From Maribacter cobaltidurans (GTDB lineage: Bacteria; Bacteroidota; Bacteroidia; Flavobacteriales; Flavobacteriaceae), in assembly GCF_002269385.1 (NCBI RefSeq), contig NZ_CP022957.1, positions 3,525,001 to 3,589,000 on the forward strand: DNA of 64,000 nt, read 5' to 3'. The notes under the pieces are model-generated. The model was not told the DNA's origin, did no database searches, and saw only the letters and a program-made list of their open reading frames with translations. Shown in pieces: positions 12,621 through 59,185 of the stretch (its first letter is position 1; each line of letters begins with the position of its first letter). Position numbers and translations under genes: made by a program.

Positions 12621-12641
12621 GGTGCCTTAATAGGTGCCCTA
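12621..12641. other. Right-end arm-type direct repeat of element 1
   Basis: GGTGCCTTA and GGTGCCCTA are separated by ATA, giving a 12-bp period, 80 bp before the att-like site at 12701. The equivalent place before the 59051 site holds GGTTACCTA twice with spacer TTC. The sequence differs but period and spacing are kept, as expected for integrase arm sites of a different element. Confidence 0.55.
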
Positions 12642-12700
12642 TTGAGAATACTGAAATATAAAACATTGATACATAGGGGAGTGGAAATGAGGGGCTAACC

Positions 12701-12713
12701 CTGCCACCCCGAC
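12701..12713. other. att-like site (tRNA-Pro 3'-end-like), junction of elements 1 and 2
   Basis: CTGCCACCCCGAC matches the expected T-stem/acceptor-stem 3' end of a Bacteroidetes tRNA-Pro (acceptor CACCCCG plus discriminator A and C). It is identical to 59051-59063. Arm-type repeats lie 80 bp before and 114 bp after, and an integrase gene follows. No complete tRNA gene is present here. Confidence 0.65.
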
Positions 12714-12810
12714 AATTACGGTGTCAATGGACACCAAATTATAGCTAATCTTATGAAAATCAAGGATTTTCATTTTTCTTGAAATCCTAAGATTGGCTTT
12801 AATATCAATT

Positions 12811-12846
12811 CAAAGGTTACCTATTCGGTTACCTAAATTGTTACCA
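12811..12846. other. Left-end arm repeats of element 2
   Basis: GGTTACCTA occurs at 12815-12823 and 12827-12835 with spacer TTC; a third, weaker TGTTACCAG follows in 12-bp register. It starts 114 bp after the att-like site and ~95 bp before the integrase start codon. A 26-bp block here (12811-12836) recurs exactly at 58966-58991, the other end of the element. Confidence 0.7.
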
Positions 12847-12893
12847 GAATTTTTACTACATTGGTAATTCAATATACTTGACTTTCGCAGCGA

Positions 12894-12904
12894 TTTGACT
12901 TTCG
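12894..12904 (+). promoter_or_regulatory. TTTGACTTTCG motif before integrase 1
   Basis: Preceded by a one-mismatch copy, CTTGACTTTCG, at 12877-12887. The CGATTTGACTTTCGT context is identical upstream of the element 3 integrase (59228-59242). It is possibly the -33 region of the integrase promoter or a factor-binding site. Confidence 0.4.
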
Positions 12905-12939
12905 TAAACAAATCGATTATTCACTTAAAGCGAGAGTTT

Positions 12940-14193
12940 ATGCAGACTTCAAAGACTTTTACCATTCATTTTTGGCTGAGTATGGCCAAGAAAAAAGATG
13001 ATTTCGCCCCCATTTATGCCCGAATCACGGTCGATGGAAAACGTGCAGAAATCAGTTTAAAACGATTTACATCGGTTACCTATTGGGATACCCGTTCCAA
13101 AAGGTCAACACTTAGGACTTCCGATGGCAAGGCACTAAATGTTTACCTTGACCAAGTGTATTCCGATTTGTTGGCTTGCCACAAACAGCTTCTGGGCGAA
13201 TCCAAATATGTTACCGCCCAAGCAATCAAGGCCCGTTACCTTGGGGAAGATGAACAGCACAAATCGCTGCTTCAACTGGTTACCTACCACAACAAGAATA
13301 TGGTTTCGGTACTCAAGCCGGGAACGCTGAAAAATTATTTCACTACGGAACGCTACATTAAAAGGTATTTGAAGCACAAATTGAAAACCAATGACGTTTT
13401 CCTGAAACATCTTTCCTATAAATTCATCATTGACTTTGAACAGTTCCTGCGCAACGGAAAATCCATAAACCGTTCCCAGCCCCTAAAGAACAACGGGGTT
13501 ATGAAACATCTGGAACGTTTGAAAAAGATGATGAACCTTGCACTTCGATTGGAATGGATCGAGAAAGACCCTTTTGTGAGATTCTCGCTAAAGTTCACAA
13601 AACACCAACGGGCATTTTTATCCCAGTCGGAACTTGAAGTTTTGGAATCCGGTAAGCTTTCCAAAGGGATGCACCAGAAAACAAGGGACGTTTTTGTTTT
13701 TGCCTGTTATACGGGCTTGTCCTATATTGATGTGAAATTGCTCTGTGATGACCATATTGTACGTGGCATTGATGGGGATTACTGGATATTTACTAAGAGG
13801 GAAAAGAACGGTGAGGCGGTTAAAATCCCCCTGTTGGATAAAGCCCTTGACATCCTGAAAAAGTATGACCAAGAACCTAAAGGCAAGCAAGAAGAACTGT
13901 TGCCGGTGTTTTCCAATCAGAAAATCAACAAGTATTTGAAGGAAATTGCGGCAATTCTAAAAATTAATAAAAAGCTTACGTTCCACGCGGCAAGGCATAC
14001 GTTTGCAACCACCGTCACGCTTTCCAACGGGGTGCCCATTGAGACCGTTTCAAAATTGTTGGGGCATACAAAGCTTTCCACAACGCAAATCTACGCGAGG
14101 GTCATCGAACAAAAAGTGTCATCGGATATGCGTTCGTTGCGCAGTAAATTAAACACCACGGACAAGGCCGAAACAAGGGTGCATTATCAATAA
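12940..14193 (+). CDS. Tyrosine recombinase / integrase of element 2
   Basis: 417-aa site-specific recombinase. An Arm-binding N-terminal domain (~1-100) and core-binding domain (~100-200) are followed by a catalytic domain with YTGLSYID (first Arg-region context) and TFHAARHTFATT (HxxR). The Tyr lies in LGHTKLSTTQIYARV. It is close to the 416-aa integrase at 59278-60528 along its length. I chose the ATG at 12940 to match that paralog. It probably integrates element 2 at the tRNA-Pro-like site using the GGTTACCTA arm repeats upstream. Confidence 0.93.
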   Translation: MQTSKTFTIHFWLSMAKKKDDFAPIYARITVDGKRAEISLKRFTSVTYWDTRSKRSTLRTSDGKALNVYLDQVYSDLLACHKQLLGESKYVTAQAIKARYLGEDEQHKSLLQLVTYHNKNMVSVLKPGTLKNYFTTERYIKRYLKHKLKTNDVFLKHLSYKFIIDFEQFLRNGKSINRSQPLKNNGVMKHLERLKKMMNLALRLEWIEKDPFVRFSLKFTKHQRAFLSQSELEVLESGKLSKGMHQKTRDVFVFACYTGLSYIDVKLLCDDHIVRGIDGDYWIFTKREKNGEAVKIPLLDKALDILKKYDQEPKGKQEELLPVFSNQKINKYLKEIAAILKINKKLTFHAARHTFATTVTLSNGVPIETVSKLLGHTKLSTTQIYARVIEQKVSSDMRSLRSKLNTTDKAETRVHYQ

Positions 14194-14304
14194 TTCGGTT
14201 TGTAAAATTCCTTTTAGGTTCTAATCCAGTCGGCACTCTTATTTTTTCTTGCCTGATCCCTTGCAGATTTCAGTTTTTATTGAGCCATAAATTTCTGCGT
14301 TAAG

Positions 14305-14433
14305 TCATTTTATTTTTCGGTCAGCTGAGGCCACCAAAACCAAACCGTGGGCAAATGTAGCCACATCCACCGCTTGTTCAAGGTCAAGCCCTTCGGGATG
14401 CCGAACATTTTTCTGCGAAAAATAACCGCTCAT
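14305..14433 (-). CDS. Possible small protein (42 aa)
   Basis: A 42-codon frame (MSGYFSQKNVRHPEGLDLEQ...) is preceded by a GGAGG-like sequence. It is more GC-rich than its neighbours. Residue composition looks protein-like (DLEQAVDVATFAHGLVLVASADRK). It may be a remnant of a larger gene. The surrounding 14194-14542 interval otherwise shows nothing I can name. Confidence 0.3.
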   Translation of the reverse strand: MSGYFSQKNVRHPEGLDLEQAVDVATFAHGLVLVASADRKIK

Positions 14434-14542
14434 ACCTTGCCCCTTCCTCCCCGTGGCTGTTGATGCCCTGTTTTGGTATTGCTAGTTGCCTAACAAGCTG
14501 CCAAAACGATTTAAAATAATGTTTAACTTAAAATTTTTAATT

Positions 14543-14950
14543 ATGGCAACAACAGTAAAACAAAACGGAACTTCAAAAAAGGATACTGCATCCGTTAAAA
14601 AGGAAGTACAGAAAAAGCTGACAGATGAAGCTATCGGAAAAGCTGCTTCGACAGAAAAAACGGTAGCATCCAAAAAAGCTACCATCAGTTTGGATGACAG
14701 GATCCAAAATTTTGAAAAACTGAGAGGATTGGCCACCCAACGGGAACGGTTAACCCAGACCTTGAACGAATTGACGAAATTCAACTACAACCAAGGGGAT
14801 TCAGCTTCATTTTACATCAGGGATTCCCACAATTTGGAGTTTAAAACGACCAATACGAACCTTATCAAATTGGTCACAACACACTTGCAATCCACTTTGG
14901 AGGAAAGAAAGTCTGAAATTGAGGAACAGATTTTACAATTTGAGCTCTAA
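14543..14950 (+). CDS. Conserved 135-aa backbone protein (element 2 copy)
   Basis: Homolog of the protein at 10014-10421, sharing the basic N-terminus, the DDRIQNFEKLRGLATQRERL helix and the C-terminus ending QFEL. The start MATTVKQNG at 14543 matches the paralog; a longer frame is not needed. In element 1 the DUF932 gene follows directly, but here ~2.8 kb of mer-like genes and an IS110 transposase separate it from DUF932 at 17792. Confidence 0.78.
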   Translation: MATTVKQNGTSKKDTASVKKEVQKKLTDEAIGKAASTEKTVASKKATISLDDRIQNFEKLRGLATQRERLTQTLNELTKFNYNQGDSASFYIRDSHNLEFKTTNTNLIKLVTTHLQSTLEERKSEIEEQILQFEL

Positions 14951-14975
14951 GCTACTTTCAAATCCTTAAAAGAGG

Positions 14976-15008
14976 AAAGCCTACTTCACAAGAGTAGGTT
15001 TTTTTTTC
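14976..15008 (+). terminator. Terminator after the 135-aa gene (element 2)
   Basis: CCTACT / AGTAGG stem with nine or more Ts. It is the same hairpin as at 9957-9990. A short GA dinucleotide run follows (about 15015-15029). Nothing else is recognised up to 15236. Confidence 0.8.
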
Positions 15009-15236
15009 TTAAAAGAGAGAGAGAGAGAGTATTCAATCAATATATGCGCAAAGGTAAACCCGTAAAATACTCCCATCAAAAGACTACGGCATAATCGGGC
15101 TCGTTTCTCGCTCCTTTTATATACTCTATTAAAAACCAAATTTTTTAAAAGAATTGAGCCCTATTATTTTCCCAAAATTTCCATGATTATATAGAACTGT
15201 AGATTATTTGACTTGATATGGGTTTTGTTAAAATCA

Positions 15237-15446
15237 TCAATTACAGCAACTAGTACCGGATTGAATGGGCGGGCAAGCCACGGAGCCATATGAACAAAAA
15301 ACGCAACAATCACCCTGTTTTGGTTTTAATACTTTATTGCAATTCTCACAGTCGTAGAAGAATTGGCAGGAAGTTGTTGGCATTTCCTCCTCTTTTTGGT
15401 GACCACAGTGTGGACAGGTAACAGTGGATTTTAGAATCACTTCCAT
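15237..15446 (-). CDS. GDCCVxC-motif small Cys-rich protein
   Basis: 69-aa protein with two zinc-ribbon-like CPHCG and CENC pairs, the GDCCVFCSYG motif and a C-terminal CC. It fits the GDCCVxC-domain (seleno)protein family that accompanies mercury transport genes. All positions here are ordinary cysteine codons. Its start overlaps the stop of the MerTP gene by one base, so they form an operon. A role in binding or handing on thiophilic metal is likely. Confidence 0.82.
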   Translation of the reverse strand: MEVILKSTVTCPHCGHQKEEEMPTTSCQFFYDCENCNKVLKPKQGDCCVFCSYGSVACPPIQSGTSCCN

Positions 15447-16048
15447 TAGTCTACGATTTTGTAACCTGTTTTTGCAATGGCGGATTCTATTTCTTCAGGT
15501 GTTACCTTACCCATATCATACTTTACAATAGCACTGGATGTTTCGTAGTTCGCATCCACTTCCAAAATACCGTTCAATTGATTGACTTCGTGCTCGATAT
15601 GGGCTTCGCAACCCGCACACGTCATTCCCTGAATGGAATAGTTCAATTCACCTAAATTGCTTTCGGATACGTAAACGACCTGTTTCTCGATATTTGAATT
15701 GGGATAAAACAAATGTGAGTAATAGGGAAATGCCAACATAATACCCGCAAAAATGGTCACCAAAAACAGAAATGTTTTTGATTGGATGAATTTAGGCTTG
15801 TCATCCCCGCAGACACAATCAATATCTTGTGGGAGTGATTTTATTTTTTGGTACCAGGCAAAACCTAGGGTCAAAAGGGTGAGGCCTATTAAAACTGGCC
15901 TGTAAGGCTCTATCCAGGAAAAAGTGGAGGCAACACCTGTGGCACCTGAAAACAATGCCAATACAGGTGTAATACAGCATAGAGAGGCCACAATCGCGGA
16001 GAAAAGGCCAGCAAAAGTACCTTGATTGGAGGTTATCGTCTTTTTCAT
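15446..16048 (-). CDS. MerTP-type mercuric transport fusion
   Basis: 200-aa protein. The N-terminal MerT-like part has three or more membrane helices with the Cys pair SLCC at 24-25 and a loop CVC at 78-80. The C-terminal part is a MerP-like HMA domain with GMTCAGC at 142-147. It would import Hg(II) to cytoplasmic thiols. I chose the ATG at 16048; an upstream TTG would overlap the regulator gene. It lies between an ArsR-type regulator and the GDCCVxC protein, with no merA visible in the window. Confidence 0.88.
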   Translation of the reverse strand: MKKTITSNQGTFAGLFSAIVASLCCITPVLALFSGATGVASTFSWIEPYRPVLIGLTLLTLGFAWYQKIKSLPQDIDCVCGDDKPKFIQSKTFLFLVTIFAGIMLAFPYYSHLFYPNSNIEKQVVYVSESNLGELNYSIQGMTCAGCEAHIEHEVNQLNGILEVDANYETSSAIVKYDMGKVTPEEIESAIAKTGYKIVD

Positions 16049-16049
16049 T

Positions 16050-16421
16050 TTACGCAATTTTTCTTTTAGATTGAATATTACTTAAAATAGCGGCAAAAAA
16101 AGCTTCATTCTTCTTTGATATGTGATAGAAAATGGTCTGACCCTGCCTGCGGGCACCAATGATTTTAGCATCTTTCATTTTACGTAAATGTTGTGAAATA
16201 GCGGGAACACTCATTTCCAAAATATCTGCAAAGTCGCAGGGGCATAACTCAATCTCCTTTTGCAACAGGAACAATATTTTAAAGCGAACTTCATTGCCTG
16301 CAAGTGCCATCAATCTGCTTACATCCTCTATGGAATCAGCTGTTCTGTTCAAATCTTCTTTACAACGAAGAATTTGTTGATGGTCTGCCTCTGCTCTGGT
16401 ACAGCTGATTTCAAGTTTCAT
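16050..16421 (-). CDS. ArsR/SmtB-family metal-responsive repressor
   Basis: 123-aa winged-helix repressor. The motif ELCPCDFADIL puts cysteines 60 and 62 at the metal site used by ArsR/CadC-type sensors, and the recognition helix follows in VPAISQHLRKMKD. Extra cysteines at 7 and 20 could complete the site. It is the first gene of the mer-like operon and is preceded by a strong inverted repeat at 16449-16470. A mercury- or other thiophilic-metal-responsive role is inferred from its neighbours. Confidence 0.9.
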   Translation of the reverse strand: MKLEISCTRAEADHQQILRCKEDLNRTADSIEDVSRLMALAGNEVRFKILFLLQKEIELCPCDFADILEMSVPAISQHLRKMKDAKIIGARRQGQTIFYHISKKNEAFFAAILSNIQSKRKIA

Positions 16422-16448
16422 GGGACGAATTTTATGCTAAGATATAAT

Positions 16449-16470
16449 TATTTAAGCAAATACTTAAATA
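16449..16470 (-). promoter_or_regulatory. ArsR-type operator
   Basis: Perfect 8-bp inverted repeat TATTTAAG-(6)-CTTAAATA, nested in a longer imperfect one, 28-49 bp upstream of the ArsR-family start codon. This is the usual geometry of ArsR/SmtB operators. The IS110 transposase stop lies only 18 bp farther upstream. Confidence 0.65.
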
Positions 16471-16487
16471 AGTTTGAAATAATTCTG

Positions 16488-17492
16488 TTAGTTGTCCTTG
16501 AACGACAAGTATGGCCTGGCTATATTTCTAGGGTCCATGCAAATATGGTTGATATCGTATGGTTTCCTATTTTGGACCACTCCATAAACGGTTCTTAAAA
16601 TTTTATTGGACACATTGTTCATTATCAGGAAATAAGGTTTTCCCTCAAGTTTTTTACGTTGTGCATACAGACTATACTCCTTATTGTGCGCCACGGCAGT
16701 CTTGGCGGCTAGGAACAACAATGATTTTAGTTTTTTGTCGGCTAGATGACTGGTCTTGGACTTCATGGACGTTTTTCCGGAGGAATTTGGATATGGGCAT
16801 ACCCCGGCAAAGGCCGCAGCCTTTTTGGCCGTTGTAATACGTTTGAAGTTTTCAGTTTTGATGATCAGATTGTTTGCGATTACCGGGCCAATGCCTTTGA
16901 TACTTGTAATAAGCTTGTAGTTATCCTTTAAATCGGAATCGCTCTGAACGATTTTTTCGATTTCCTTTTCGATGGACCCAATTTCAATTTCCACATTCAT
17001 AATGGCTCTCTGATAGCTTCTATGAGCCACAATACTCTGTGAAGGACCATGCTTTCTTGTTTTCATTCCCAATAAAAGGGATGTTCTGTTCTTTGACAAC
17101 TGTTCCCGCAAACTATAAAGTTCCTTGAGCTCTTTGACCGACTCGGGCTTTGGCTCTGTTAAGTGCAATTCTTCAGTGAACCTCTCACCGTATTTCCTGA
17201 TACGATAAGCATCCTTCGAATCACTCTTTCCCCGTTGCAACCCCAAGCTATGCTTAATGTTATAGCCGGAGACCAATGCTATTTTGACTTGGAACTGGTA
17301 ACAGAGATGAACTAACAGGTCTCCATAAGTTCCCGTATGTTCAGCTACCAGGATACAGTTATCTTCAACTTGTTTCAAAAAGCTGCAGATACCCTTAAAG
17401 TCATTTTTTACAATCCTTTTTTTCTCCTCACCTGTAATAACATAGCTTACGTCAAATTTCTCTTTGGACAGGTCGATTCCATATATTTTCAT
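16488..17492 (-). CDS. IS110-family transposase
   Basis: 334-aa transposase. The N-terminal RuvC-like DEDD domain begins MKIYGIDLSKEKFDV with the second acid in EHTGTYG and the later GKSDSKDA block. The C-terminal IS116/IS110/IS902 domain shows IKGIGPVIANN and FAGVCPYPNSSGKT. Length is typical and the frame is intact, so it may be active. IS110 elements lack terminal inverted repeats, so the exact ends are not visible. It lies between the mer-like operon and the DUF932 gene. Confidence 0.92.
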   Translation of the reverse strand: MKIYGIDLSKEKFDVSYVITGEEKKRIVKNDFKGICSFLKQVEDNCILVAEHTGTYGDLLVHLCYQFQVKIALVSGYNIKHSLGLQRGKSDSKDAYRIRKYGERFTEELHLTEPKPESVKELKELYSLREQLSKNRTSLLLGMKTRKHGPSQSIVAHRSYQRAIMNVEIEIGSIEKEIEKIVQSDSDLKDNYKLITSIKGIGPVIANNLIIKTENFKRITTAKKAAAFAGVCPYPNSSGKTSMKSKTSHLADKKLKSLLFLAAKTAVAHNKEYSLYAQRKKLEGKPYFLIMNNVSNKILRTVYGVVQNRKPYDINHICMDPRNIARPYLSFKDN

Positions 17493-17791
17493 AATAAGTG
17501 TTTTTGATGTTCCTTTTGAGCGGCTTAAATCGTTAGTGGGTTATGCCCGTAATACTCTCTGGCTTAGGCTCAAATAACTTACCGTACTTAATATAAATAG
17601 TAGATTTCCTCTATTCCGTTTCTAAAGCTATTGCAGTAAGTGGAACTATTAATTTCAAGATAGAACTGTATCTGTTCTAACAATATTATTTCTATCGGCT
17701 AAGTAACGATATCCGTTTCCTTTTGAGCCGAGATTTTATCTTCCGTTTGGTTCTAGCTTAAATATTTATTGTTTAACTAAAATCAAATGTT
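17493..17791. other. Non-coding region between IS110 transposase and DUF932 gene
   Basis: It holds no gene. CCTTTTGAGC occurs twice (near 17511 and 17718), and the 3' part reads TTATTGTTTAACTAAAAT before the DUF932 start. The right end of the IS110 element, or of the mer insertion, should lie here. Confidence 0.35.
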
Positions 17792-18628
17792 ATGTATTTA
17801 TCAAATTTACAGCAGGATGACATCTTCGTTCCATCAGAAATGAAATCCTTGAAAAGCCTGACCCAGATGGAATCCCGACGGGGACTTGAAAATGCCATAA
17901 TTTCCAATGGTAAAATTGTCAACGTAATATCAAACAGCTACGGCCACGTACCCAATGAGCTCTTCTTCAAGAAAGCCGAAGAAATGTTGACCGATGCCAA
18001 GCTGAATTATCAGAAACGAACGATCAACAGGGATGACAGGTCATTTATAACCGATTTTATCATCGATGACAACAGCCAATTCTCGGTCAAGAATGAAAAA
18101 GACCTGATATTGCCAATGCTGCGGTTCAAGAATTCCTATGATGGTAGCGAAAAGACATCGGGACATTTTGGCTTTTATAGGGAGGTTTGCTCCAATGGCC
18201 TGCACGTTTCACAGGCCGAAATCGAGTTCGCCATCAAGCATAGTAAGAACAATACCGACCTGATAATGCCAAGGTTGAATAATCTGTTCGATAAGTTCGT
18301 AGATAATGAATTCTACACGATTACTGAGAAGTTCGACAGAATGAGGGAATTTCAAATCATCGACACCAAAGAATTTGTAAGGAAAATTCTGGAAAGCACT
18401 AAATTGTTCCGGTATGAATGTAGCGATAAGAACAACGATCCTTCAAAGAAATCCCGTGAAGTCCTTGAAATTTTGGATAATGAAGCGTTGTTGCTCAATG
18501 AAGCTCCAAATTTGTGGATAGGCTATAATGCTTTTAATCAAATGCTTCACAATACATTGAAGAAAAGCTTTTCACAACAGGAACGCTTGGACAAAAAACT
18601 GTTCGATGCCGTTTATGAAATGGCTTAA
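17792..18628 (+). CDS. DUF932-like protein (element 2 copy)
   Basis: 278-aa homolog of the protein at 9097-9933 with the same DUF932-like blocks (SYGHVPNELFFKKAEEML, RFKNSYDGSEKTSGHFGFYREVCSNGL). Its usual upstream partner, the 135-aa gene, is 2.8 kb away because of the mer/IS110 insertion. It may therefore depend on a promoter inside the inserted DNA or on its short own leader. It is followed directly by the cargo slot marked by repeat copies A, B and C. Confidence 0.82.
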   Translation: MYLSNLQQDDIFVPSEMKSLKSLTQMESRRGLENAIISNGKIVNVISNSYGHVPNELFFKKAEEMLTDAKLNYQKRTINRDDRSFITDFIIDDNSQFSVKNEKDLILPMLRFKNSYDGSEKTSGHFGFYREVCSNGLHVSQAEIEFAIKHSKNNTDLIMPRLNNLFDKFVDNEFYTITEKFDRMREFQIIDTKEFVRKILESTKLFRYECSDKNNDPSKKSREVLEILDNEALLLNEAPNLWIGYNAFNQMLHNTLKKSFSQQERLDKKLFDAVYEMA

Positions 18629-18702
18629 TGCCGATAAAGGTTTATCCAGTACCTTAAACTGGATTTTTTTTATTCTGAGCGAAAGAGTTTATTTGGAAAG
18701 TT

Positions 18703-18932
18703 GGTTTTGCAATCCCATTCAGCATATTCCCCTGCATTTCGCGAAATGCTACATTCCGGGCAAAGAACTTTCCTAACAAGATCTTGGACACAACCCCAAA
18801 GCTTCCGATTCCCATTCCACTTGCCCGCTTGTTCCCGAGAAAAGTCGGGAAGCGGCCAAACTCCATTCCCATCTACACCTTTGAAGTCAAGTCCGCTTTA
18901 AACCCTACTTCAAGAGGATAATGCGTTTTCAT
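18703..18932 (+). repeat. ~200-bp dispersed repeat, copy A
   Basis: Shares long blocks with copy B: CAGC..ATTCCCCTGCATTT, GTCTTGGAC.CAAC (here ATCTTGGACACAAC), CAAACTCCATTCC.ATCTACAC and GAAGTCAAGTCCGCTTTA. It contains the palindrome GCATTTCGCGAAATGC and a central hairpin (TTCCCGAGAAAAGTCGGGAA). With copy B it brackets the DUF1259 lipoprotein gene. Confidence 0.7.
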
Positions 18933-19018
18933 ATTTCAGAGCGGAATTTCTGCATTGGCAGAACTGTTTTTATGATTTAATCATAACTTTTCTTAACTTT
19001 AAAAAAATCATTTTCAAG

Positions 19019-19966
19019 ATGAAAAAGCTACTGATTGTATTAAGTATTTTGGGATTATTAGTTGCCTGCAATAATCGCAATGAAAAACCCAAAGAAGATA
19101 AAAACCCAAAAATTGAAAAATCTGTTTCTCGGGATTCAATGAATTTGGTTCAGCAAAATTCATTTAATGTTAATGAAATAGACGGTTTCTGGAACAAAAA
19201 ACTTGCGGACAATAAAGAATTTTACAAAGTTACCTTTCCCCGTACCGATATTCACCTAAAAATTGATGGGGTGTCTGTGGAGGCGGGCTTGGCTTATACT
19301 TCCTGGATAGCCTACCGCCCAATGGGGAAGAATACGCAAATTATGGGGGATATGGTTTTGTTGGACAACGAAATTCCCAAGGTCATACCTTATTTAAAAG
19401 AAAACGGCATTTTAATAACCGCCGTTCATAACCATTTGTTACGGGAACAACCACGGCTGATTTATATGCACATCGCGGGAAATGGTGATGCTTTGGAGCT
19501 ATCTAAAATTATGAAAGGTGCCTACGCGCTTACCGCCACGCCATTGACCGAAACATCAAATAAAAACGAAAACAAGGGAATGGATTGGGCTCCGGTTAAG
19601 AAGATCCTGGGGGAGAATGGCAAAGAAGGTGGAAATTTATTGAAATATGGTTTCCCCAGGAAAGGGGCTATTACTATGAACGGCAACACTATGCCTTCAA
19701 CATTTGGGATTGCCACCGCAATTGGCTTTCAGGCCATCAATAAAAACGAGGCTGTTATCACGGGCGATTTTGTAATGAAGGCTGAAGAAGTAAATGCGGT
19801 CATTACAGAATTGGCAAAAAACAATATTGAAGTTGCAGCACTCCATAACCATATGCTTTTTGAGAAGCCCCGATTGTTTTATATGCATTTTTGGGCCAAG
19901 GGAAACCCGGAAGAACTTGCAAAAGGATTTAAGGCTGCATTAGATCAGACTTCTTCCGTGCAATAA
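19019..19966 (+). CDS. DUF1259-like lipoprotein (LppY/LpqO-type)
   Basis: 315-aa lipoprotein with a signal peptide ending LLVAC (Cys17). Two internal repeats each carry a similar motif, AVHNHLLREQPRLIYMH and ALHNHMLFEKPRLFYMH, which marks the DUF1259/LppY-LpqO family. Histidine clusters suggest metal or small-ligand binding at the cell surface, but no function is known. It is the cargo between direct repeat copies A and B in element 2. Confidence 0.85.
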   Translation: MKKLLIVLSILGLLVACNNRNEKPKEDKNPKIEKSVSRDSMNLVQQNSFNVNEIDGFWNKKLADNKEFYKVTFPRTDIHLKIDGVSVEAGLAYTSWIAYRPMGKNTQIMGDMVLLDNEIPKVIPYLKENGILITAVHNHLLREQPRLIYMHIAGNGDALELSKIMKGAYALTATPLTETSNKNENKGMDWAPVKKILGENGKEGGNLLKYGFPRKGAITMNGNTMPSTFGIATAIGFQAINKNEAVITGDFVMKAEEVNAVITELAKNNIEVAALHNHMLFEKPRLFYMHFWAKGNPEELAKGFKAALDQTSSVQ

Positions 19967-20032
19967 TTCGGAAAAACCCGAAATGGCCGGTAAAAATTAC
20001 TGCGGTATTGTTCCCCAATGCAGCGATATAAA

Positions 20033-20188: not shown

Positions 20189-20346
20189 TCATTGAAATTT
20201 AATGGCTTGGGACCATCTTGTCTTACTGTTTTCATATTCCCTTCAAGTCGTTTGAATCCCTACAAGATACAAATTTATAAGCCCAAATTCCAAAAAAAGT
20301 TATGAGTCAACTTCCCTTTTAATCCGAGGTTATTGGCACCATTAAA

Positions 20347-52085: not shown

Positions 52086-52087
52086 AA
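51683..52087 (-). CDS. Small secreted His-rich protein
   Basis: 134 aa from a TTG start, with an N-terminal hydrophobic stretch and many histidines (IGHDIVPHTD, QEHSELSHIFEHFQHSSNER). The HxxxHxxxH-like run could bind metal. The sequence is duplicated downstream as a frameshifted copy. It is the first gene upstream of the RND pump and might act in metal sensing or buffering. Confidence 0.6.
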   Translation of the reverse strand: MKLFRNILFFTAAFIMIGHDIVPHTDVSPDGEQISFSIALTADSQQIAQEHSELSHIFEHFQHSSNERTLKYVTGATKHLNFKTKILQNAALIIDIDNQFIWHANFEKQRFRDYPLIPYFSTLSSHTLRGPPSC

Positions 52088-52144
52088 AAAATAATAATAA
52101 AAATTAGGGACAAATATAGTTATTTTGTTTCGTGTGACAAATTT

Positions 52145-52327
52145 TTAATGGGTATGATTAGTAATGAACATATGGCTATATAACAGTAATAAAAATAATA
52201 GTAGCACGAAAATAACAATTGCCACAATAAAGAAAGTTTTTAAAGCTTTATACTTTTTTCTGATTTCTGTTTCTGAATATTTTTTATTTCTTTCTTGTTT
52301 GCGCCTATTTTTGCGGTTTTCTGACAT
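52145..52327 (-). CDS. Small basic single-TM protein with His tail (second)
   Basis: 60 aa. The N-terminus SENRKNRRKQERNKK is basic, one long membrane helix follows (FFIVAIVIFVLLLFLLLLYS), and the end is NHTH. It is related in design to 42564-42731. It lies between the two copies of the tandem duplication. Confidence 0.6.
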   Translation of the reverse strand: MSENRKNRRKQERNKKYSETEIRKKYKALKTFFIVAIVIFVLLLFLLLLYSHMFITNHTH

Positions 52328-52388
52328 AAATATTGATATATAAGTAATTTCTAACGTAAAGATGAAAAAGGGAAAATGCTATGGCAAA

Positions 52389-52875
52389 AGATTGTTGCAT
52401 AGCTAAGGTATAGCAAGCATCAATGTCAAACTCGATTAAAGCTTGAATGACAGTTATCACCTTAAGGAATTAACAAGAAGGAGGTCCCCGAAAGGTATAG
52501 GAGGATAATGTTGAAAAGTATGGAATTAAAGGATAATACCGAAAGCGTTGTTTTTCAAAATTTGCGTGCCAAATAAATTGATGGTCTATATCAACTATCA
52601 AAGCGCTATTTTGAAGGATCTTTGTTTTAAAATCAAGGTGCTTGGTCGCACTTGTCACATATTTTAGAGTCCTTTCATTTGAAGAATGCTGAAAGTGCTC
52701 AAATATATGGTTTAACTCTGAATGTTCTATGGCTATTTGCTGAGAAACTTCTGTCCGGAGCAATAGAAAAAGAAATCTGTTCGCCATCCGGTGATATGTC
52801 GGTATGAGGCACGATATCATGACCTATCATAATGAAGGCTGCGGTAAAGAACAGTATATTTCTAAATAATTTCAA
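52389..52875 (-). repeat. Tandem duplication unit 2
   Basis: Duplicate of 51591-52085. Many single-base differences show that the duplication is not recent. Confidence 0.7.
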
Positions 52876-52878
52876 AAA
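52470..52878 (-). pseudogene. Frameshifted copy of the His-rich secreted protein gene
   Basis: Matches 51683-52087 nearly throughout, but a 1-bp insertion around 52745-52760 (GCTCCGGACAGAAGT.. versus the shorter intact sequence) shifts the frame. The intact C-terminal half (HSELNHIFEHFQHSSNERTLKYVT) can only be read in the shifted frame. Confidence 0.7.
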
Positions 52879-52973
52879 TTGCTTCTAAATTATTTTGCGA
52901 AAATAGCGATAAGTTTTTTCTTAAAAAAATATAAAAAACCATAAGTGAGAAATATTAGCATAAACATCGCTTT

Positions 52974-54920
52974 TTAGTTTATCTGAATTTTATTTCTATA
53001 ATTGCTCAAATAATATAGCATCATAAGAATCCCAAGTAAGACCAATTGAGATATTAAACTTTCCAATGTAGGATAGACACCCAACCAATCTATTTTAGGG
53101 GAAACAGGGAGACCTGTTACAGAAAGCCAGCCAGCTTCTTGAATGGCGTGAATACCTTTACCTATTAGAATTACCGCCAATAGGGTAATTACCCACGAGG
53201 AATATCTAAAAAGTTGCCGGACCGGTATTTTTTTTGAATATTTTAGAAAAAGAAACGCGAGCAGGCCTATCAAGGCAAAAGCCGCCAGCACCCCAAACCC
53301 GATGGATGATTGATCGCCAGATTGGGTTTCCAAACCAATGGCCTGTAAAAAAAGGATCGATTCAAAAGCTTCCCGGAAAACGACCATAAATGAAAAGAAT
53401 GCCAGCCCGATCATTTTTTCACCCTTCAATTGTGCCCCGACCTTTTTTTCAATAAACTCTTTCCATTTTTTGGAATGGGAATAGTTGTGAAGCCAAAAAC
53501 CGACAAAGGCGAGGACAATAACCGCTACCAATGAAATCATTCCCTCCATTATTTCCCTATTCTGACCACTTATGCCAATAATCCAATCTGAAAGGAACCA
53601 TCCTGCTACACCCATTAAAATAGCGGTAATCCATCCACGGTGAATATAGGGCAGGGCTTTTTTAGCCTTTGGTGTTCTACGTATCAGTGCCAAGATAAGT
53701 GCAATGATCAAAAAAGCTTCCAGTCCCTCACGCAGCATTATGGATGCCGCCAAAAAGAAAGAAAGCCAATAGTTGAGCTTTTCATCTTTCATCATTTTTT
53801 CGGCGCGGTCAATAGTTGAGAGGGCACTATTTATTTTATATTCGACCTCACTTGAATTTTTGCCTTGTTCAATGACCTGCCTAACATCCATCATTTTTTG
53901 CTCCAATTGGGAAGTAAATTTAGGATCATTGGCTTTTAGGCGTATCTCGACGGGTTCAATCCCTTCTAAATAGGCTGCCAACGCTTTTTGACGGGCCTCA
54001 TCTTTATTGCCATTTTTATAATTGGAAAATGCTTGATGAAGATAATCCCTCGCAACAGTCAAACTGGATTGCGATAGTTCTCCTGAAGGGGAAAAAAACC
54101 TCAATGCCTTTAGCTTTTTTTGTCCCTGTATATTCGAACCGAGTTTTTTGATTAATTGATTATCCGATAGCGTGGCAACATCCTTTAGTGAAGTTTTCCC
54201 ATATTGCTGATTGAATATTTTTTTCAGGGATACAGAATCTATTTCTTGTTTTTGAAACCGTAATGATTTGACATAAAAGGCCAAATCCCAGGCTTCTTTA
54301 TCGGATAGTTCCGTAAACGCCTGCATCGCTGTTCCTTCCACGCCCAGTTTGACCGTATTATAGGCTTCAAATGGGGACAGGCCTGCCATAAGGGAATCAT
54401 TCAAAAAATTTGCGGGGGCTGGTTTTAACCCATTGGCCAAAGTTCCGTTTCCACCGCCTTTTGGTCCGTGGCATTGAACACAGTTCTGCGTATATAGTTT
54501 TTGACCATTTGCCGCGTCCGGCCAATTTAAGGGGGCAACTTCATAGCCGGTCGTTTTAATGATCGCCCATTTTACTTTTTCTGCTAAGTCCTTAATTTTT
54601 TTACTGGAAGCTTTATCCCGAACAAGGATTTTTAAATCATTTAAATCAGAAAGGATAGATTGCCCTGATCTGGATGGTAATTTTATTTTTTGTGTTAAGT
54701 TAAAAATCTTTGCGCTAAACTCCTGCATTTCGGCATATTCTGCCTTGTCGATTACTTTTCCTTCCCTCACGGCCATTGGATAATCTTTTGAAAGATAATC
54801 CAAAAGATGGATTACACTTTGGATATTACTATCCTTTTCCTTTGCAGAAATTTGAAGAGAAGAAAAGAATATAAAAATATATAGGACGTATGATGGTATG
54901 GAATACAAATACAATTTCAT
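52974..54920 (-). CDS. Cytochrome c - FTR1-type iron permease fusion
   Basis: 648 aa. A signal helix, then a periplasmic region with a heme c site CVQCH at 147-151, then seven helices with the two FTR1 iron motifs REGLE (near 397) and REAFE (near 513). FTR1-type permeases import iron after oxidation; the fused cytochrome would couple electron transfer to uptake. This is a known Bacteroidetes layout. An effect on lead or other metals is also reported for family relatives. Confidence 0.88.
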   Translation of the reverse strand: MKLYLYSIPSYVLYIFIFFSSLQISAKEKDSNIQSVIHLLDYLSKDYPMAVREGKVIDKAEYAEMQEFSAKIFNLTQKIKLPSRSGQSILSDLNDLKILVRDKASSKKIKDLAEKVKWAIIKTTGYEVAPLNWPDAANGQKLYTQNCVQCHGPKGGGNGTLANGLKPAPANFLNDSLMAGLSPFEAYNTVKLGVEGTAMQAFTELSDKEAWDLAFYVKSLRFQKQEIDSVSLKKIFNQQYGKTSLKDVATLSDNQLIKKLGSNIQGQKKLKALRFFSPSGELSQSSLTVARDYLHQAFSNYKNGNKDEARQKALAAYLEGIEPVEIRLKANDPKFTSQLEQKMMDVRQVIEQGKNSSEVEYKINSALSTIDRAEKMMKDEKLNYWLSFFLAASIMLREGLEAFLIIALILALIRRTPKAKKALPYIHRGWITAILMGVAGWFLSDWIIGISGQNREIMEGMISLVAVIVLAFVGFWLHNYSHSKKWKEFIEKKVGAQLKGEKMIGLAFFSFMVVFREAFESILFLQAIGLETQSGDQSSIGFGVLAAFALIGLLAFLFLKYSKKIPVRQLFRYSSWVITLLAVILIGKGIHAIQEAGWLSVTGLPVSPKIDWLGVYPTLESLISQLVLLGILMMLYYLSNYRNKIQIN

Positions 54921-55052
54921 TAAGAAATTTTAAAAACAATTATTATTTAGACTAAATATAAACAAAAGCGTCGTATTTTGAAAACAACTAAACTTTATGT
55001 AATTTTTTTTTTTAAAAATCAACATTTACAAAACCCTATAAAGTTTTTCTTT

Positions 55053-56960
55053 TTACCTTAATAACCTCAAACCGCTAAGTATCACCAATACCGTACTTCC
55101 CTCGTGCCCGATTACACCTTCCGGCAAATTTATAATACCACCAATAAAATTTAAAGTAATAAGGGTAAGTGCCACGCCAATGGCAAAAATCACATTCTGT
55201 TTGATAATCCTGTTTGTTCTTTTGCCTAAAGAAATGGCAAATGGAATTCTCTCAATATCATCGGCCATTAAAATAACATCGGCAGTTTCTATTGCTATAT
55301 CTGTGCCCGCGGCCCCCATAGCGATACCTACGGATGCGGCCGCCAAGGCGGGTGCATCATTGACCCCATCCCCGACCATTGCGACCTTGCCATATTTGGC
55401 GGTCATTTTTTTGATAAAATCAACCTTGTCTTCGGGTAAAAGACCTGAATAAATTTCTTCTATTCCAGTGCTTTCCCCAATGTTCTTTGCAGTTCTCTCA
55501 TTATCGCCCGTTAAGAGCGCTACACGGATATTCATATTTTTTAATTCCTCGATTACCCTTCTCGCTTCAAGCCGTACTTGGTCGAAAATTGAAACCATTC
55601 CAATAAGATTATGACCGTTAGATACAAATATGATTGTTCTTCCTTGTTGTTCAAGCTTAAGGGCCAAATCTTCCTGTTCTTTGGTAAGGACTATATTGTT
55701 TAACATATCCCTTTTACCAACCTTATAACTGATTCCATTTAAAGTGCCCTGCACCCCCATACCCTTAAAAGACCGTAAGTTTATGGAATGCTCCAGTTCA
55801 ATATTCTTATTTAGGGCGTGTTGCACGATGGACTTTGCAATGGGATGTTCGGATAAAGCTTCTATGGAAGCCGTTGTTTTCAACAATTCCATTTCAGAAT
55901 AATTTTCGAATGAAATTATGTCCTGCACAACGGGTTCTCCATAGGTGAGGGTTCCCGTTTTGTCGAATATTACCGCCTTGACCCCTGCAATATTTTCAAG
56001 GTGCGCACCACCTTTGAACAAAACCCTTTTCCTGGATGCATTGGAAATTGCAGACAATATGGCCGGCATAATAGAGGATACCAATGCACAGGGCGAAGCC
56101 ACCACCAAAAAGATCATTGCCCTATAAATTGTTTCCTTCCACGACCAATGTATTATAAAAGGAGGGGCGATCATTAGGATTATTGCCGTAATGACAACGA
56201 TTTTTGCATAGATACTTTCAAATTTTTCAACGAAAAGCTGGTTGGGTGGTTTTTCGTTTTTAGCTTCCTGCACCAAGTGGATTATTTTTGAAAGCATCGT
56301 TTCTTCTGCTTGCTTGGTCACTTTAACCTCTATGCCACCGTAACCGTTCACAGTCCCAGAGAAAACTTCATCATTAACCGTTTTATCCACGGGAACGGAT
56401 TCCCCGGTTATGGTAGCTTGATAAATTGCGGAATATCCTTGGGTAATAATACCGTCGGCAGCAATACGCTCCCCGGGTTTAATTAGAATGGTATCCCCTT
56501 TCTTTAACTCTTCTGCTTTGACCTCTACTTGTTTCCCATTCCTTAATAGAACCGCCTTTTCCGGACGAAGGTCCAGAATGGACCGAATATCTTTGTTCGT
56601 CCGTTCCATTGTATATCCTTCAAGCGTGCCACTCAAGGAAAAAATAAAAATTAAAATAGCCCCATCCATCCAATACCCAATTGCAGCAGCTCCTATTGCA
56701 GCAATTACCATTAGCAAGTCAACATCAAGGTCTTTTTCTTTGAATAGAGTACTGATGCCTTCAACCGCTTTTTGGTAACCACCAACAATATATGCAAACA
56801 GGAAGAGGATAATTTCAACAAATGTATAATCATTTATTCGCGCCAAGTATGCCAGGACAATAAATAGAAGACAAAATGAAGTAACGATTGCCGCCCCGTG
56901 ACTTTCCCATAAACCAAATGAAAAACCCTTATTGGGCTTATGATTACTTTTCGTGATCAT
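55053..56960 (-). CDS. P1B-type heavy-metal ATPase (Cd/Zn/Co-type)
   Basis: 635 aa from MITKSNHKPN, with the phosphorylation site FDKTGTLT (D333), the TGES actuator loop, SPCAL in the transport helix and MVGDGVNDAPALA. No N-terminal HMA domain is visible. The SPC motif fits Cd/Zn/Pb or Cu export. The start at 56960 is 94 bp from the divergent AraC gene, so the two share a promoter region. Confidence 0.9.
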   Translation of the reverse strand: MITKSNHKPNKGFSFGLWESHGAAIVTSFCLLFIVLAYLARINDYTFVEIILFLFAYIVGGYQKAVEGISTLFKEKDLDVDLLMVIAAIGAAAIGYWMDGAILIFIFSLSGTLEGYTMERTNKDIRSILDLRPEKAVLLRNGKQVEVKAEELKKGDTILIKPGERIAADGIITQGYSAIYQATITGESVPVDKTVNDEVFSGTVNGYGGIEVKVTKQAEETMLSKIIHLVQEAKNEKPPNQLFVEKFESIYAKIVVITAIILMIAPPFIIHWSWKETIYRAMIFLVVASPCALVSSIMPAILSAISNASRKRVLFKGGAHLENIAGVKAVIFDKTGTLTYGEPVVQDIISFENYSEMELLKTTASIEALSEHPIAKSIVQHALNKNIELEHSINLRSFKGMGVQGTLNGISYKVGKRDMLNNIVLTKEQEDLALKLEQQGRTIIFVSNGHNLIGMVSIFDQVRLEARRVIEELKNMNIRVALLTGDNERTAKNIGESTGIEEIYSGLLPEDKVDFIKKMTAKYGKVAMVGDGVNDAPALAAASVGIAMGAAGTDIAIETADVILMADDIERIPFAISLGKRTNRIIKQNVIFAIGVALTLITLNFIGGIINLPEGVIGHEGSTVLVILSGLRLLR

Positions 56961-57054
56961 CGATTTTGATATAAATGAATTGATTCCACAAAAATATTTT
57001 ATTAATCCCGAAATTATTAGGTAAAAAAACGACTTTTTTAAGTACCTTAGCGCA

Positions 57055-57912
57055 ATGAATTCCAATCATATTTATACAGATATAAAAATTTCCACTAAGA
57101 CAATCCATTCGAATGCGTCAAGATCGCATAAGCATAATTATTTTGAATTGATTTATGTATTGGAAGGAAAAGGTGTTCACATAATCAATAAAAATCACTA
57201 TGATTTCTCAAAAGGAAATCTGTTTTTATTAACACCAGAGGATATACATAATTTCGATGTTAAGGAAACAACTACCTTCTGTTTCATAGATTTTACCGAA
57301 AGTTTTTTTGTCGAGAACCCAAAGAAGAAAAGTGGTAAAGCAGAATTAAGCGGGTTTTTTAAGAAACTGGAGTATGTTTTTCATAATCACCATAACACAA
57401 ATGGAAATATTATTACGGGAAATGATGAATTGATCTATGAAGTACTCATTAATAAGCTAATTGATGAAGAACAAAATAACCGACAATACAAGCATATTAT
57501 AGTTCAAAATATCGTTTTTTTACTACTTAATCTTGTAGCAAGAAATATTCAAGAAAATATTATCGTCCACTCTCAATTAGAGAATCCAAAAAACAAGGTT
57601 TATGAAATCATTACTTATATCCAACAAAACATCTATGAAAAAGATCTTATTAAGATAAAACCCTTAGCAACTCATTTCAATAAATCGCCTGATCATTTGG
57701 GAAGGTATTTTAAACGAGAGACCGGCAGAACAATTAAGAATTATATAAACGATTATAAAACCGAGCTTATAAAAACAAGGTTAAAGTACAGCAATTTAAG
57801 TATTTCAGAAATTGCTGATGAGCTGAATTTTACAGACGGTAGTCATCTTAACAAAATTTTCAAAAGGGCTTATGGCAAAACAGCATATCAGTTCAAGGAA
57901 AGCATTGATTAA
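57055..57912 (+). CDS. AraC-family transcriptional regulator
   Basis: 285 aa. The N-terminal cupin-like sensing domain has histidines (SRSHKHNYFELIYV, VHIINKNH) that could bind metal. The C-terminal AraC HTH pair is at ~190-280 (LATHFNKSPDHLGRYFKRETG, SISEIADELNFTDGSHLNKIFKRAYG). It is divergently transcribed from the P1B ATPase and is the likely regulator of it. Confidence 0.85.
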   Translation: MNSNHIYTDIKISTKTIHSNASRSHKHNYFELIYVLEGKGVHIINKNHYDFSKGNLFLLTPEDIHNFDVKETTTFCFIDFTESFFVENPKKKSGKAELSGFFKKLEYVFHNHHNTNGNIITGNDELIYEVLINKLIDEEQNNRQYKHIIVQNIVFLLLNLVARNIQENIIVHSQLENPKNKVYEIITYIQQNIYEKDLIKIKPLATHFNKSPDHLGRYFKRETGRTIKNYINDYKTELIKTRLKYSNLSISEIADELNFTDGSHLNKIFKRAYGKTAYQFKESID

Positions 57913-57967
57913 ATAAAGCGTCAATAGATAAAACAATCAATTGAGCCAATTCCGATGAAAGCTTCAA

Positions 57968-58133
57968 TGCTTATGAATATTACCTTTCAGCACAAAAAAG
58001 TAGAACAATAAAGGCTACGATTATCAGAAGGACTAAGGCAATTATGCCTTTTACCCTATCACTATTTGTGATTTCGTCCTTAGTTGGTTTTTGAACTTTT
58101 TTCTTTCATCCGTTTCTGAGGCTTTGAGACATT
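57968..58133 (-). pseudogene. Broken copy of the small basic single-TM protein gene
   Basis: The minus-strand sequence from ATGTCTCAAAG closely matches 42564-42731 but has an in-frame TGA after eight codons and a later single-base shift, so it no longer encodes the protein. Confidence 0.6.
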
Positions 58134-58139
58134 TTTTAT

Positions 58140-58470
58140 TTATTTCCAATTCATTTTCTGTAAAAGTATCGCATTCAGTATGGCAAGAAAGGCTGCGCCA
58201 ACATCGGCAAAAACGGCCTCCCACATTGTTGCCATCCCAAAGGCACCTAAGACCATAACGGCGATTTTAACCCCGAATGCCAAACCGATATTCTGCCAAA
58301 CTATTTGTCTGGTCGAACGGCCTATTTTTATTGCCCTTGCGATTTTGGAGGGTTGGTCGGTCTGGATGATGACATCGGCGGTCTCAATGGCTACATCGCT
58401 GCCCAAACCGCCCATAGCCATACCTACATCACTCGTGGCCAAAACGGGGGCATCGTTGATACCGCTATAA
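58140..58470 (-). pseudogene. 3' fragment of a P1B-type ATPase gene
   Basis: Codes for GINDAPVLATSDVGMAMGG...QKMNWK, the conserved hinge and last two helices of a metal P-type ATPase. The phosphorylation and transport domains are missing, and an in-frame stop precedes the segment. It is a relic of a second pump near the right end of element 2. Confidence 0.75.
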
Positions 58471-58575
58471 ATAAATTAAGCATATTCAACTATTTCAATA
58501 TTTGAAAAAAATTATGAAAGATCCAAAAAACCAATCAACACCCGTAATAGAATGATCATACCCCCAATTATCCAG

Positions 58576-58834
58576 TTATTTTTTTTTGTTCCATTTATAC
58601 CCCTTTACTATTAACAAACACTCTGTTTTTACACCTTTGGGAATTAGACTTACGGCGAAATAAGTATCTATCGGGAAAAAGTCGGGAATCAGATCAATGG
58701 GACTTAGCGTATACCCAATATCGAAAAAAATTAAAACTTTGGCGGACCAAAGAGTTCTTCTGTCTTTGTAGGCCAAATGCAACATCACCAGTTGCTGCTT
58801 TAGTTTTTTTTGCCCAGACTTTTAATTTTTTCAT
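58576..58834 (-). pseudogene. Frameshifted DUF1232 (YkvA-like) gene
   Basis: The 5' part reads MKKLKVWAKK; a run of eight As adds one base and shifts the frame. After it, LKQQLVMLHLAYKDRRTLWSAKVLIFFDIGYTLSPIDLIPDF follows, the DUF1232 core. The C-terminus past IPDF also departs from the family. It is a relic, unless the A-run is slippage-tolerant. Confidence 0.6.
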
Positions 58835-58965
58835 AATACATTGAGACTGTTCTAAATACTTATGGAATCCTGCACAAAGGGGATGCCAAATAGAATTTGA
58901 TCCTATTTATTGTTTTTTTAGTTTAAGATATTCATATATCTTTGTTTTCACGAATAAAATTGGTG

Positions 58966-58991
58966 CAAAGGTTACCTATTCGGTTACCTAA
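58966..58991. other. Right-end arm repeat of element 2
   Basis: GGTTACCTA at 58970-58978 and 58982-58990 with spacer TTC. The 26-bp block is identical to 12811-12836, and it starts 81 bp before the att-like site at 59051. Confidence 0.75.
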
Positions 58992-59050
58992 TTTTATTGA
59001 ATTAATATAAGTGTCTGGTTATTAAAATATTGTCTAGTGGCAAGTTAGTT

Positions 59051-59063
59051 CTGCCACCCCGAC
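59051..59063. other. att-like site (tRNA-Pro 3'-end-like), junction of elements 2 and 3
   Basis: CTGCCACCCCGAC, identical to 12701-12713. Arm repeats of element 2 lie before it and arm repeats of element 3 after it. The surrounding 58835-59277 holds no gene. Confidence 0.65.
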
Positions 59064-59164
59064 GAACCTAGAAATAGGTCACAATAAAACACTGTTAATC
59101 ATTTGATTTTCAGTGTTTTTTGTTTTTTATGCATTCAATTGATTTCATTTAAAACCAAATAAAA

Positions 59165-59185
59165 GGTGTGCAATTCGGTGTACAA
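59165..59185. other. Left-end arm repeat of element 3
   Basis: GGTGTGCAA and GGTGTACAA separated by TTC (12-bp period), 114 bp after the att-like site, the same offset as in element 2. The sequence is element-specific. Confidence 0.6.

Follow-up and report, generated by a model that had tools for sequence, protein, structure and literature searches.

A tandem array of four integrative elements in the tRNA-Pro gene of Maribacter cobaltidurans and the private arm repeats of its elements

Introduction

Shared tRNA sites are hotspots where mobile elements accumulate, which bears on the question of which elements may coexist. We analysed such a site in Maribacter cobaltidurans, where a tandem array of four integrative elements, here called A to D, occupies the 3' end of a tRNA-Pro gene and where the elements carry short paired repeats, the arm repeats, of their own. 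The window, that is, the whole stretch of 64,000 nucleotides under study, covers positions 3525001-3589000 of a single 4.64-Mb contig, and window coordinates count from its first letter. A comparable pair, phage 21 and e14 at icd of E. coli, reportedly uses one attB, and its poor cross-excision is said to have been attributed to different arm sites by Wang et al. 1997; it differs from the array in being lambdoid, in having only two elements and in being experimental.

Other related systems are in print. The sections of PMC3203893 consulted here describe cluster K mycobacteriophages with paired short arm repeats on both sides of a core derived from a tRNA or tmRNA gene, with one attB served by different arms (the K1 phages; Pixie versus Tweety), with integrase N-terminal residues proposed to read the arm difference, and with a stem-loop terminator between core and arm. 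The repeats, the single attB with different arms and the stem-loop have counterparts at our locus, whereas the phage cases are few and those sections contain neither a tandem array nor a test of neighbour avoidance. For phage-inducible chromosomal islands of the HE-PICI type, the consulted part of PMC10111431 gives an attP with a doubled, co-oriented motif at a 12-bp step (our count) and distances of 81 +/- 2 and 132 +/- 2 bp. The 81-bp side resembles the right arms described below, mostly at 78-82 bp; the islands differ in having a single motif for their clade, in being proteobacterial satellites and in a far side at 132 rather than about 115 or 125 bp.

Arrays of integrative and conjugative elements (ICEs), integrative and mobilizable elements (IMEs) and cis-mobilizable elements (CIMEs) are, in the portion of PMC5704250 consulted, similar in their tandem site-specific integration at a tRNA 3' end, their chimeric internal att sites and their decayed segments that keep att sites after losing the integrase; Tn6031 of Sphingobacterium is recorded there at tRNA-Pro. 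The published tandems of functional elements generally have distantly related integrases, whereas three of our four belong to one subfamily (49-56% identical to each other) with different arms. The IntCTnDOT subgroup, as far as PMC8138268 was consulted, likewise comprises integrases of Bacteroidota ICEs and IMEs with an N-terminal arm-binding domain, and its CTnDOT branch lacks the first catalytic arginine, as here; the likeness concerns integrase features, not the CTnDOT/NBU1 arm sequences. One attB with different arms, N-terminal specificity residues and a core-proximal terminator (PMC3203893) are, by these portions of the sources, already in print, as are accretion arrays (PMC5704250). Apparently new are the stack of four elements told apart by their arms, the breadth of arm types in Bacteroidota and the deficit of like arms among neighbours; our literature search, of limited coverage, found no paper on the arm types of flavobacterial tRNA-Pro elements.

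Results

Four elements in the 3' end of one tRNA-Pro gene

An earlier note on this DNA, made from the window alone, had reported the 13-mer CTGCCACCCCGAC at 12701 and 59051, each time followed by an integrase gene, and had proposed three tandem mobile elements at a tRNA-Pro-like site. Both copies are exact, lie on the + strand, are the only ones in the window when up to two mismatches are allowed, and precede tyrosine integrases with an Arm-DNA-bind_5 domain; with the same tolerance, shuffled windows hold a mean of 0.31 occurrences, and 4 of 100 shuffles reach two. The genome has five copies, all on the + strand, at 3434261, 3485256, 3537701 (window 12701), 3584051 (window 59051) and 3640640, which delimit four tandem elements, A (51.0 kb), B (52.4 kb), C (46.35 kb) and D (56.6 kb), 206 kb altogether. 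The tandem arrangement and the tRNA-Pro target stood; the count of three was rejected, as the genome shows four elements. The two copies in the window are:

12701..12713, + strand: core CTGCCACCCCGAC of the chimeric B/C junction (tRNA-Pro 3' end)
59051..59063, + strand: core CTGCCACCCCGAC of the chimeric C/D junction

An intact tRNA-Pro gene, whose absence from the outer end of the array would by the earlier note have refuted its reading, is present at the left outer end: according to ARAGORN, the first 13-mer (3434261) lies within the 3' end of an intact tRNA-Pro(TGG), a tRNA-Pro(UGG) situated 90.7 kb left of the window start. The sole other tRNA in the 264 kb examined with ARAGORN is an adjoining tRNA-Ser, and the displaced tRNA terminator was found at the right outer end of the array.

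In this genome about 207 kb separate the two genes that flank the array, one to the left of the tRNA and the other to the right of the last 13-mer. A relative, genome G023, shows the empty site: both flanking genes (98% and 86% identical) lie about 0.5 kb apart on one contig, with a single 13-mer between them. When our flanks are joined at the 13-mer, the resulting sequence agrees fully with G023 through 160 bp on the left, the 13-mer itself and the bases that directly follow; the terminator hairpin behind the 13-mer differs at one position, and divergence grows farther out. This match indicates that the array was inserted at the last bases of the tRNA and that the native terminator was moved 206 kb away. 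Since direct repeats of the tRNA 3' end bound every element and the site is empty in a relative, A to D form a tandem array built by accretion, with four integrative elements inserted at the 3' end of tRNA-Pro(UGG).

The arm domain PF17293 is present in all four integrases. That of A shares only 26-27% identity with the other three and is encoded on the opposite strand at the tRNA-distal end of its element, whereas the integrases of B, C and D lie at the tRNA-proximal ends of theirs; moreover, A duplicates 47 bp of the tRNA, while the sites of B, C and D have 13-16 bp in common. On these differences, A is a lineage of its own that has reached the same tRNA target.

Arm repeats private to each element share a common geometry

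Both junctions in the window are chimeras, made of the right arm of the left neighbour, the core and the left arm of the right neighbour:

12621..12641, + strand: right arm pair of B, GGTGCCTTA ATA GGTGCCCTA, 80 bp left of the core
12815..12835, + strand: left arm pair of C, GGTTACCTA TTC GGTTACCTA, 114 bp right of the core
58970..58990, + strand: right arm pair of C, GGTTACCTA TTC GGTTACCTA, 81 bp left of the core
59165..59185, + strand: left arm pair of D, GGTGTGCAA TTC GGTGTACAA, 114 bp right of the core

The conserved distances reported earlier (80 and 81 bp from right arm to site, 114 and 114 bp from site to left arm) are thus recovered, and so is the 26-bp block identical at both ends of the second element, our C. 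The proposal of arm repeats with a 12-bp period private to each element also stood, except that GGTGCC(T/C)TA describes the right arm of B only, the left arm being GGTGTCCTA twice.

We compared these arms with those of other elements carrying the same integrase family. The survey drew on the best matches in 397 genomes of the family and on the best 80 named loci, and therefore favours relatives of B, C and D; it gave 212 integrase loci including these three, 183 of them unique and long enough. For the tRNA test, in which the short protein L082 was added, a core was found at most 300 bp upstream of the integrase in 152 of 184 rows, and in 122 of these 152 it lies within an intact tRNA-Pro (anticodon TGG in 86, GGG in 36). 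At the GGG sites the core is mostly CTGTCATCCCGAC; C-type integrases (89-96% identical) use TGG or GGG tRNA-Pro with the same arms, which shows the arms to be independent of the core.

A pair of GGT-N6 repeats with a 12-bp step, 111-129 bp from the core, is present in 131 of 151 elements, compared with a mean of 2.4 after shuffling, and the left-arm distances form two peaks, 114-117 and 124-126, about one helical turn apart. An arm could be scored at 35 of the 53 right ends examined, and in 34 cases it stands 78-82 bp from the core; the remaining 18 ends mostly have low-scoring types that start with CGT, AGT, GAT or GGG. Besides GGTTACCTA (C), GGTGTGCAA (D) and GGTGTCCTA (B), the arm types include GGTGAATCA (F), GGTCAACAA (G), GGTTCACAA or GGTTAACAA (J) and rarer ones. 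Automatic detection missed some types (33 of 183 integrases fell under the score, and locus L200 was misread although its arm is plain), so the junction arms were read by eye. The arm repeats are real, are private to each element and have a common geometry. Element A (genome 3434261-3485256) has its own repeat with a 12-bp step, TTTGCACTC, at both ends.

Along with the new 3' end, most elements also seem to supply the tRNA with a replacement terminator. In 136 of 151 elements the first 90 nt behind the core contain a hairpin and then a T run, compared with 46 in mononucleotide-shuffled sequence and 48 in a control window. In the array, A, C, D and the chromosome pass this rule, and B fails it despite a long hairpin. 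The corresponding region of C is:

12714..12800, + strand: hairpin region just after the core, which likely replaces the tRNA terminator

Arms follow the N-terminal domain of the integrase

The integrases of B, C and D are tyrosine recombinases of the IntCTnDOT type; those of C and D have Arm-DNA-bind_5, SAM-like and catalytic domains, and that of B aligns along its full length. In their alignment, the motif TGLSYIDV / TGLAYIEV / TGLSYVDV has no arginine at the position that we take to be that of the first catalytic arginine of other families. The predicted structure of the C integrase begins with three beta strands and one helix (strands 7-13, 22-31 and 34-45, helix 61-86), with a predicted local distance difference test (pLDDT) score mostly of 85-90 in this N-terminal block, a whole-model mean of 75 and a predicted template modelling (pTM) score of 0.50. 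A sequence search of the structure database returned mostly Xer-like and other recombinases that match outside the arm domain; the fold search placed Tn1549 Int and lambda Int on top with low TM-scores and carried no weight in our argument.

Co-variation was evaluated in 150 integrases with a readable arm pair, 107 after reduction to under 90% identity. Arm similarity correlates with identity in the N-terminal domain given the catalytic domain (partial rank correlation 0.31; none of 500 permutations as high), whereas its correlation with catalytic-domain identity given the N-terminal domain is -0.03 (412 of 500 permutations as high). Partial Mantel tests may be liberal on related sequences, and the argument is the contrast between the two domains. 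By corrected mutual information, 17 of the top 20 pairs involve the first 97 residues (4.7 expected), as do 28 of the top 50 (11.6 expected). The co-varying residues include 10, 12-14, 23-24, 53 and 59, and, outside the N-terminal domain, 159, 198 and 406; in the predicted three-strand domain of the C integrase, strand 1 finishes with residues 10-13, and residues 23-24 are at the beginning of strand 2. Judged by these co-variations, the arms follow the N-terminal rather than the catalytic domain of the integrase.

Unlike arms face each other across junctions

Arms at the two ends of one element are similar (mean 0.853, minimum 0.714, in 32 tabulated elements compared at 14 positions). By the same measure, arms that face each other across 34 junctions have a mean similarity of 0.454, compared with a permuted mean of 0.519 (P=0.0034), and at a threshold of 0.75 none of the 34 junctions is like-armed, versus 4.2 expected (P=0.008). 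When junctions are pooled and compared at 12 specificity positions, 0 of 43 are like-armed at either 0.70 or 0.75, versus 5.8 expected (P=0.0008). These results are suggestive, not settled, of a like-arm deficit among neighbours, which depends on threshold, measure and redundancy.

Within single genomes, 5 of 26 pairs lying far apart or on different contigs are alike at 0.75, compared with 0 of 8 near pairs; four of the five are at separate tRNA-Pro genes (G159, G356, G300 and G187) and one is on two draft contigs (G167). Galbibacter orientalis has two arrays with C-type arms on both sides of a different element. Weakly, this pattern favours an effect of the junction over an immunity that acts throughout the cell.

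The junction test covers chimeric junctions with readable arms. Left out were the A/B junction, A being of another integrase lineage; L034, L097, L108, L129, L153 and L199, whose left neighbour has no readable arm; L228 (duplicate of L227), L317 and L323 (repeats of L091 and L102) and L305 (single arm copy); and right ends facing the chromosome, a contig end or a stretch with no readable arm. The same-element set leaves out segments with mismatched ends and no intact integrase in G149, G410 and G014, as well as the G020 and G053 segments, which show no left arm; one same-element pair each in G347, G412 and G261 and two in G410 were not tabulated. No intact integrase-like open reading frame (ORF) of at least 250 aa was found in the segments of G149, G410 and G014, as expected of fused, CIME-like remnants in the terms of the consulted portion of PMC5704250.

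In G020 (L286) and G053 (L253, L254), a segment lies between two cores and closely similar chromosomal sequence stands right of both, namely the terminator region in G020 and more than 100 bp in G053, an arrangement unlike that of the other elements; neither the 13.2 kb read in G020 nor the 4 kb read in G053 showed an intact integrase.

Element C occurs independently of its neighbours

Element C and its transfer genes are located as follows:

12701..59063, unstranded: element C, 46,350 bp, ICE, bounded by the same 13-mers in Zunongwangia pacifica
12940..14193, + strand: C integrase with Arm-DNA-bind_5, SAM-like and catalytic domains (ATG 12940 picked by alignment; the ORF is open from TTG 12895 too)
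23030..24061, + strand: MobB family relaxase
24068..25651, + strand: coupling protein, T4SS-DNA_transf / TrwB-like, MobC-like but below the MobC model cut-off
30280..36509, - strand: conjugation genes for a DUF4138 protein, TraM, TraK (below cut-off), a 280-aa protein, a 191-aa ORF and TraG

The 280-aa protein has no NCBIfam match; going by its position, we take it to be TraJ. With an integrase, a MobB relaxase, a coupling protein and mating genes (TraG, TraM, the TraK match below cut-off and DUF4138) between its att sites, C is, by predicted gene content, an ICE.

The 13-mers are also element boundaries in relatives, as the earlier note had supposed. In Zunongwangia pacifica, C lies directly on tRNA-Pro, with 100.000% identity to our copy over 2,422 and 9,072 bp, two stretches that make up all 11.5 kb aligned on the left side, where the locus goes no further. 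Both ends of C are 100% identical over 1,513 bp in the two species, and outside its 13-mers the identity ceases after 1 bp (left) and 4 bp (right). The site-to-site distance is 43,760 bp there and 46,350 bp here, a difference of 2,590 bp that fits an alignment gap at 2,423-5,008 of C, where the Maribacter cobaltidurans copy holds an IS110-family transposase. The right neighbour of C is D here, an F-type element in Zunongwangia pacifica and a G-type element in Maribacter litoralis. C-type integrases (at least 92% identity) are at tRNA-Pro in Galbibacter, Marixanthomonas, Leeuwenhoekiella and the non-flavobacterial Membranihabitans (Saprospiraceae). On these comparisons C is an autonomous unit, and its 100% identity across genera suggests that it moved recently.

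Discussion

How neighbours may be kept apart

We read the locus as an accretion array of elements whose integrases use private arms and in which like-armed neighbours would be lost, and we assign this reading a probability of roughly 0.7. B, C and D share the core CTGCCACCCCGAC, and each arrival rebuilds an intact tRNA end, usually adding a hairpin-plus-T terminator, as can be read from the sequence. The N-terminal domain of each integrase would bind its own GGT-N6 pair, 12 bp apart, as the geometry and the co-variation suggest, with the pairs 80-81 bp from the core on one side and, on the other, either about 115 bp or, a helical turn farther out, about 125 bp from it. Unlike arms would keep every junction from serving as a complete attP for any resident integrase, and an integrase could assemble an excision complex on no att pair but the attL/attR of its own element; between neighbours with like arms a complete chromosomal attP would arise, and they would be lost. 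We infer that the arms stop cross-excision, and the statistics lean that way.

A bolder version, possible but in our judgement rather doubtful, takes arm sequence as a local incompatibility code, so that elements competing for one tRNA may stack only beside unlike-armed neighbours; like arms flanking a junction would be a complete attP, deleting the neighbour with no need of an excisionase. Rivalry for the common site would then push the arms to diverge, and residues of about 10-14, 23-24, 53 and 59 of the C integrase would predict stacking from sequence.

Several results weigh against the loss of like-armed neighbours. Pooled junctions at a threshold of 0.66 include 5 like-armed ones versus 9.0 expected (P=0.07), and the nine added junctions alone, from 3 of 6 genomes searched via named loci, include 0 versus 1.67 (P=0.11). 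By the 14-position measure, 2 of 34 are like-armed at 0.70 (6.6 expected, P=0.02), or 2 of 29 once near-duplicates are removed (5.6 expected, P=0.05), and the deficit is unclear at 0.60 (P=0.10) and 0.80 (P=0.08). The junction arms, moreover, were read by eye ahead of testing. Genome G149 is a counter-case, with two like-armed left ends within one array; neither its first segment nor the 2.9 kb read next to the second such end showed an intact integrase. According to the consulted part of PMC5704250, a composite of Streptococcus agalactiae whose att sites differ greatly is excised in one piece, and as many as six identical copies of SGI1 are reported in tandem; a table in the part of PMC9934374 consulted seems to show composite excision likewise for a Mycobacterium abscessus tandem prophage. 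Different arms, then, need not forbid excision as a composite.

Two further weaknesses of the deficit are also what ordinary tandem accretion would produce if arm differences were phylogenetic drift of the integrases and had no role in the choice of neighbours: with one junction per type combination the count is 0 of 24 versus 2.35 expected (P=0.07), and at 0.70 the contrast between near pairs (3 of 8) and far pairs (6 of 26; cross-genome background 26%) vanishes, which slightly lowered our confidence in like-arm loss. Arms do follow integrase clades, and the consulted portion of PMC5704250 documents well how distantly related elements accrete at a single tRNA. Yet like-armed elements coexist at other tRNA-Pro genes or non-adjacently in one array while none of 43 junctions is like-armed, and many D-type integrases are just 65-77% identical to that of D, which also makes loss by homologous recombination a weak alternative; on balance, drift alone seems to us unlikely. 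That B, C and D are one composite moving as a unit, with the inner 13-mers as relics, would account for the B-like/C and C/D-like junctions also present in Allomuricauda abyssi, but we regard it as very improbable: in Zunongwangia, Galbibacter, Maribacter litoralis, Leeuwenhoekiella and others it is C that adjoins tRNA-Pro directly, the right neighbour of C varies as listed above, and each of the elements combines a separate integrase with matching arms at its two ends. Even less credence is due to the idea that the repeats are operators or promoter elements of the integrase gene: the left repeats do lie between core and integrase gene, but their distance to the core is limited to two narrow ranges, and repeats of the same kind stand at the opposite end of the element, as much as tens of kb distant, where their spacing from the core is almost constant (mostly 78-82 bp); on this ground we rejected the idea.

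With a near-constant target and varying arms across 107 non-redundant natural integrases, the role of the arms in orthogonality is directly testable. Integrases that share one core and differ in arms could also serve as a toolkit for stacking DNA at one Bacteroidota locus.

Other contents of the elements

The elements at the two sides of C extend beyond the window:

1..12713, unstranded: right portion of element B (complete element genome 3485256-3537713; its homologues of the C transfer genes are beyond the window)
59051..64000, unstranded: left part of element D (whole element genome 3584051-3640652; MobB relaxase, IME-like)
59278..60528, + strand: D integrase, 56% identical to the C integrase

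Element B carries homologues of the ICE genes of C at 31-81% identity, TraG at 74%, assigned by homology to the C genes rather than scanned singly; the protein with 81% identity is presumably TraJ, going by position. B looks like a second ICE. Relaxases are present in A and D, and no homologue of the B/C mating genes was found among ORFs of at least 120 aa in either, the family scan covering some ORFs only; with a relaxase and no such homologue found, D appears IME-like.

The cargo of C includes a 1,481-aa ORF (47075-51520) that fuses an RND (resistance-nodulation-division) pump (ACR_tran, residues 20-1050) with an outer-membrane efflux domain (OEP), and a fusion of an FTR1 iron permease with a cytochrome c domain (52974-54920), adjoined by a P-type ATPase (55053-57065). 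Type IIG restriction-methylase-like proteins are encoded in C (window 25857-28895) and in A (L008:1439-4192). A also has AbiE-like genes by Pfam, with the nucleotidyl transferase below cut-off.

A and D have several ORFs in common that are 100% identical as proteins and repeated within each element (346, 376, 279 and 547 aa). They are probably insertion sequences; only the 346-aa ORF is tied to a family, by a 29% match to the IS110-type ORF of C. Finally, D encodes a protein kinase-AAA fusion (L012:7001-11448; PADLOC matches to the mad6, IetA and PD-T4-6 models) adjoining an Hsp70-like protein, which together form a possible defence module.

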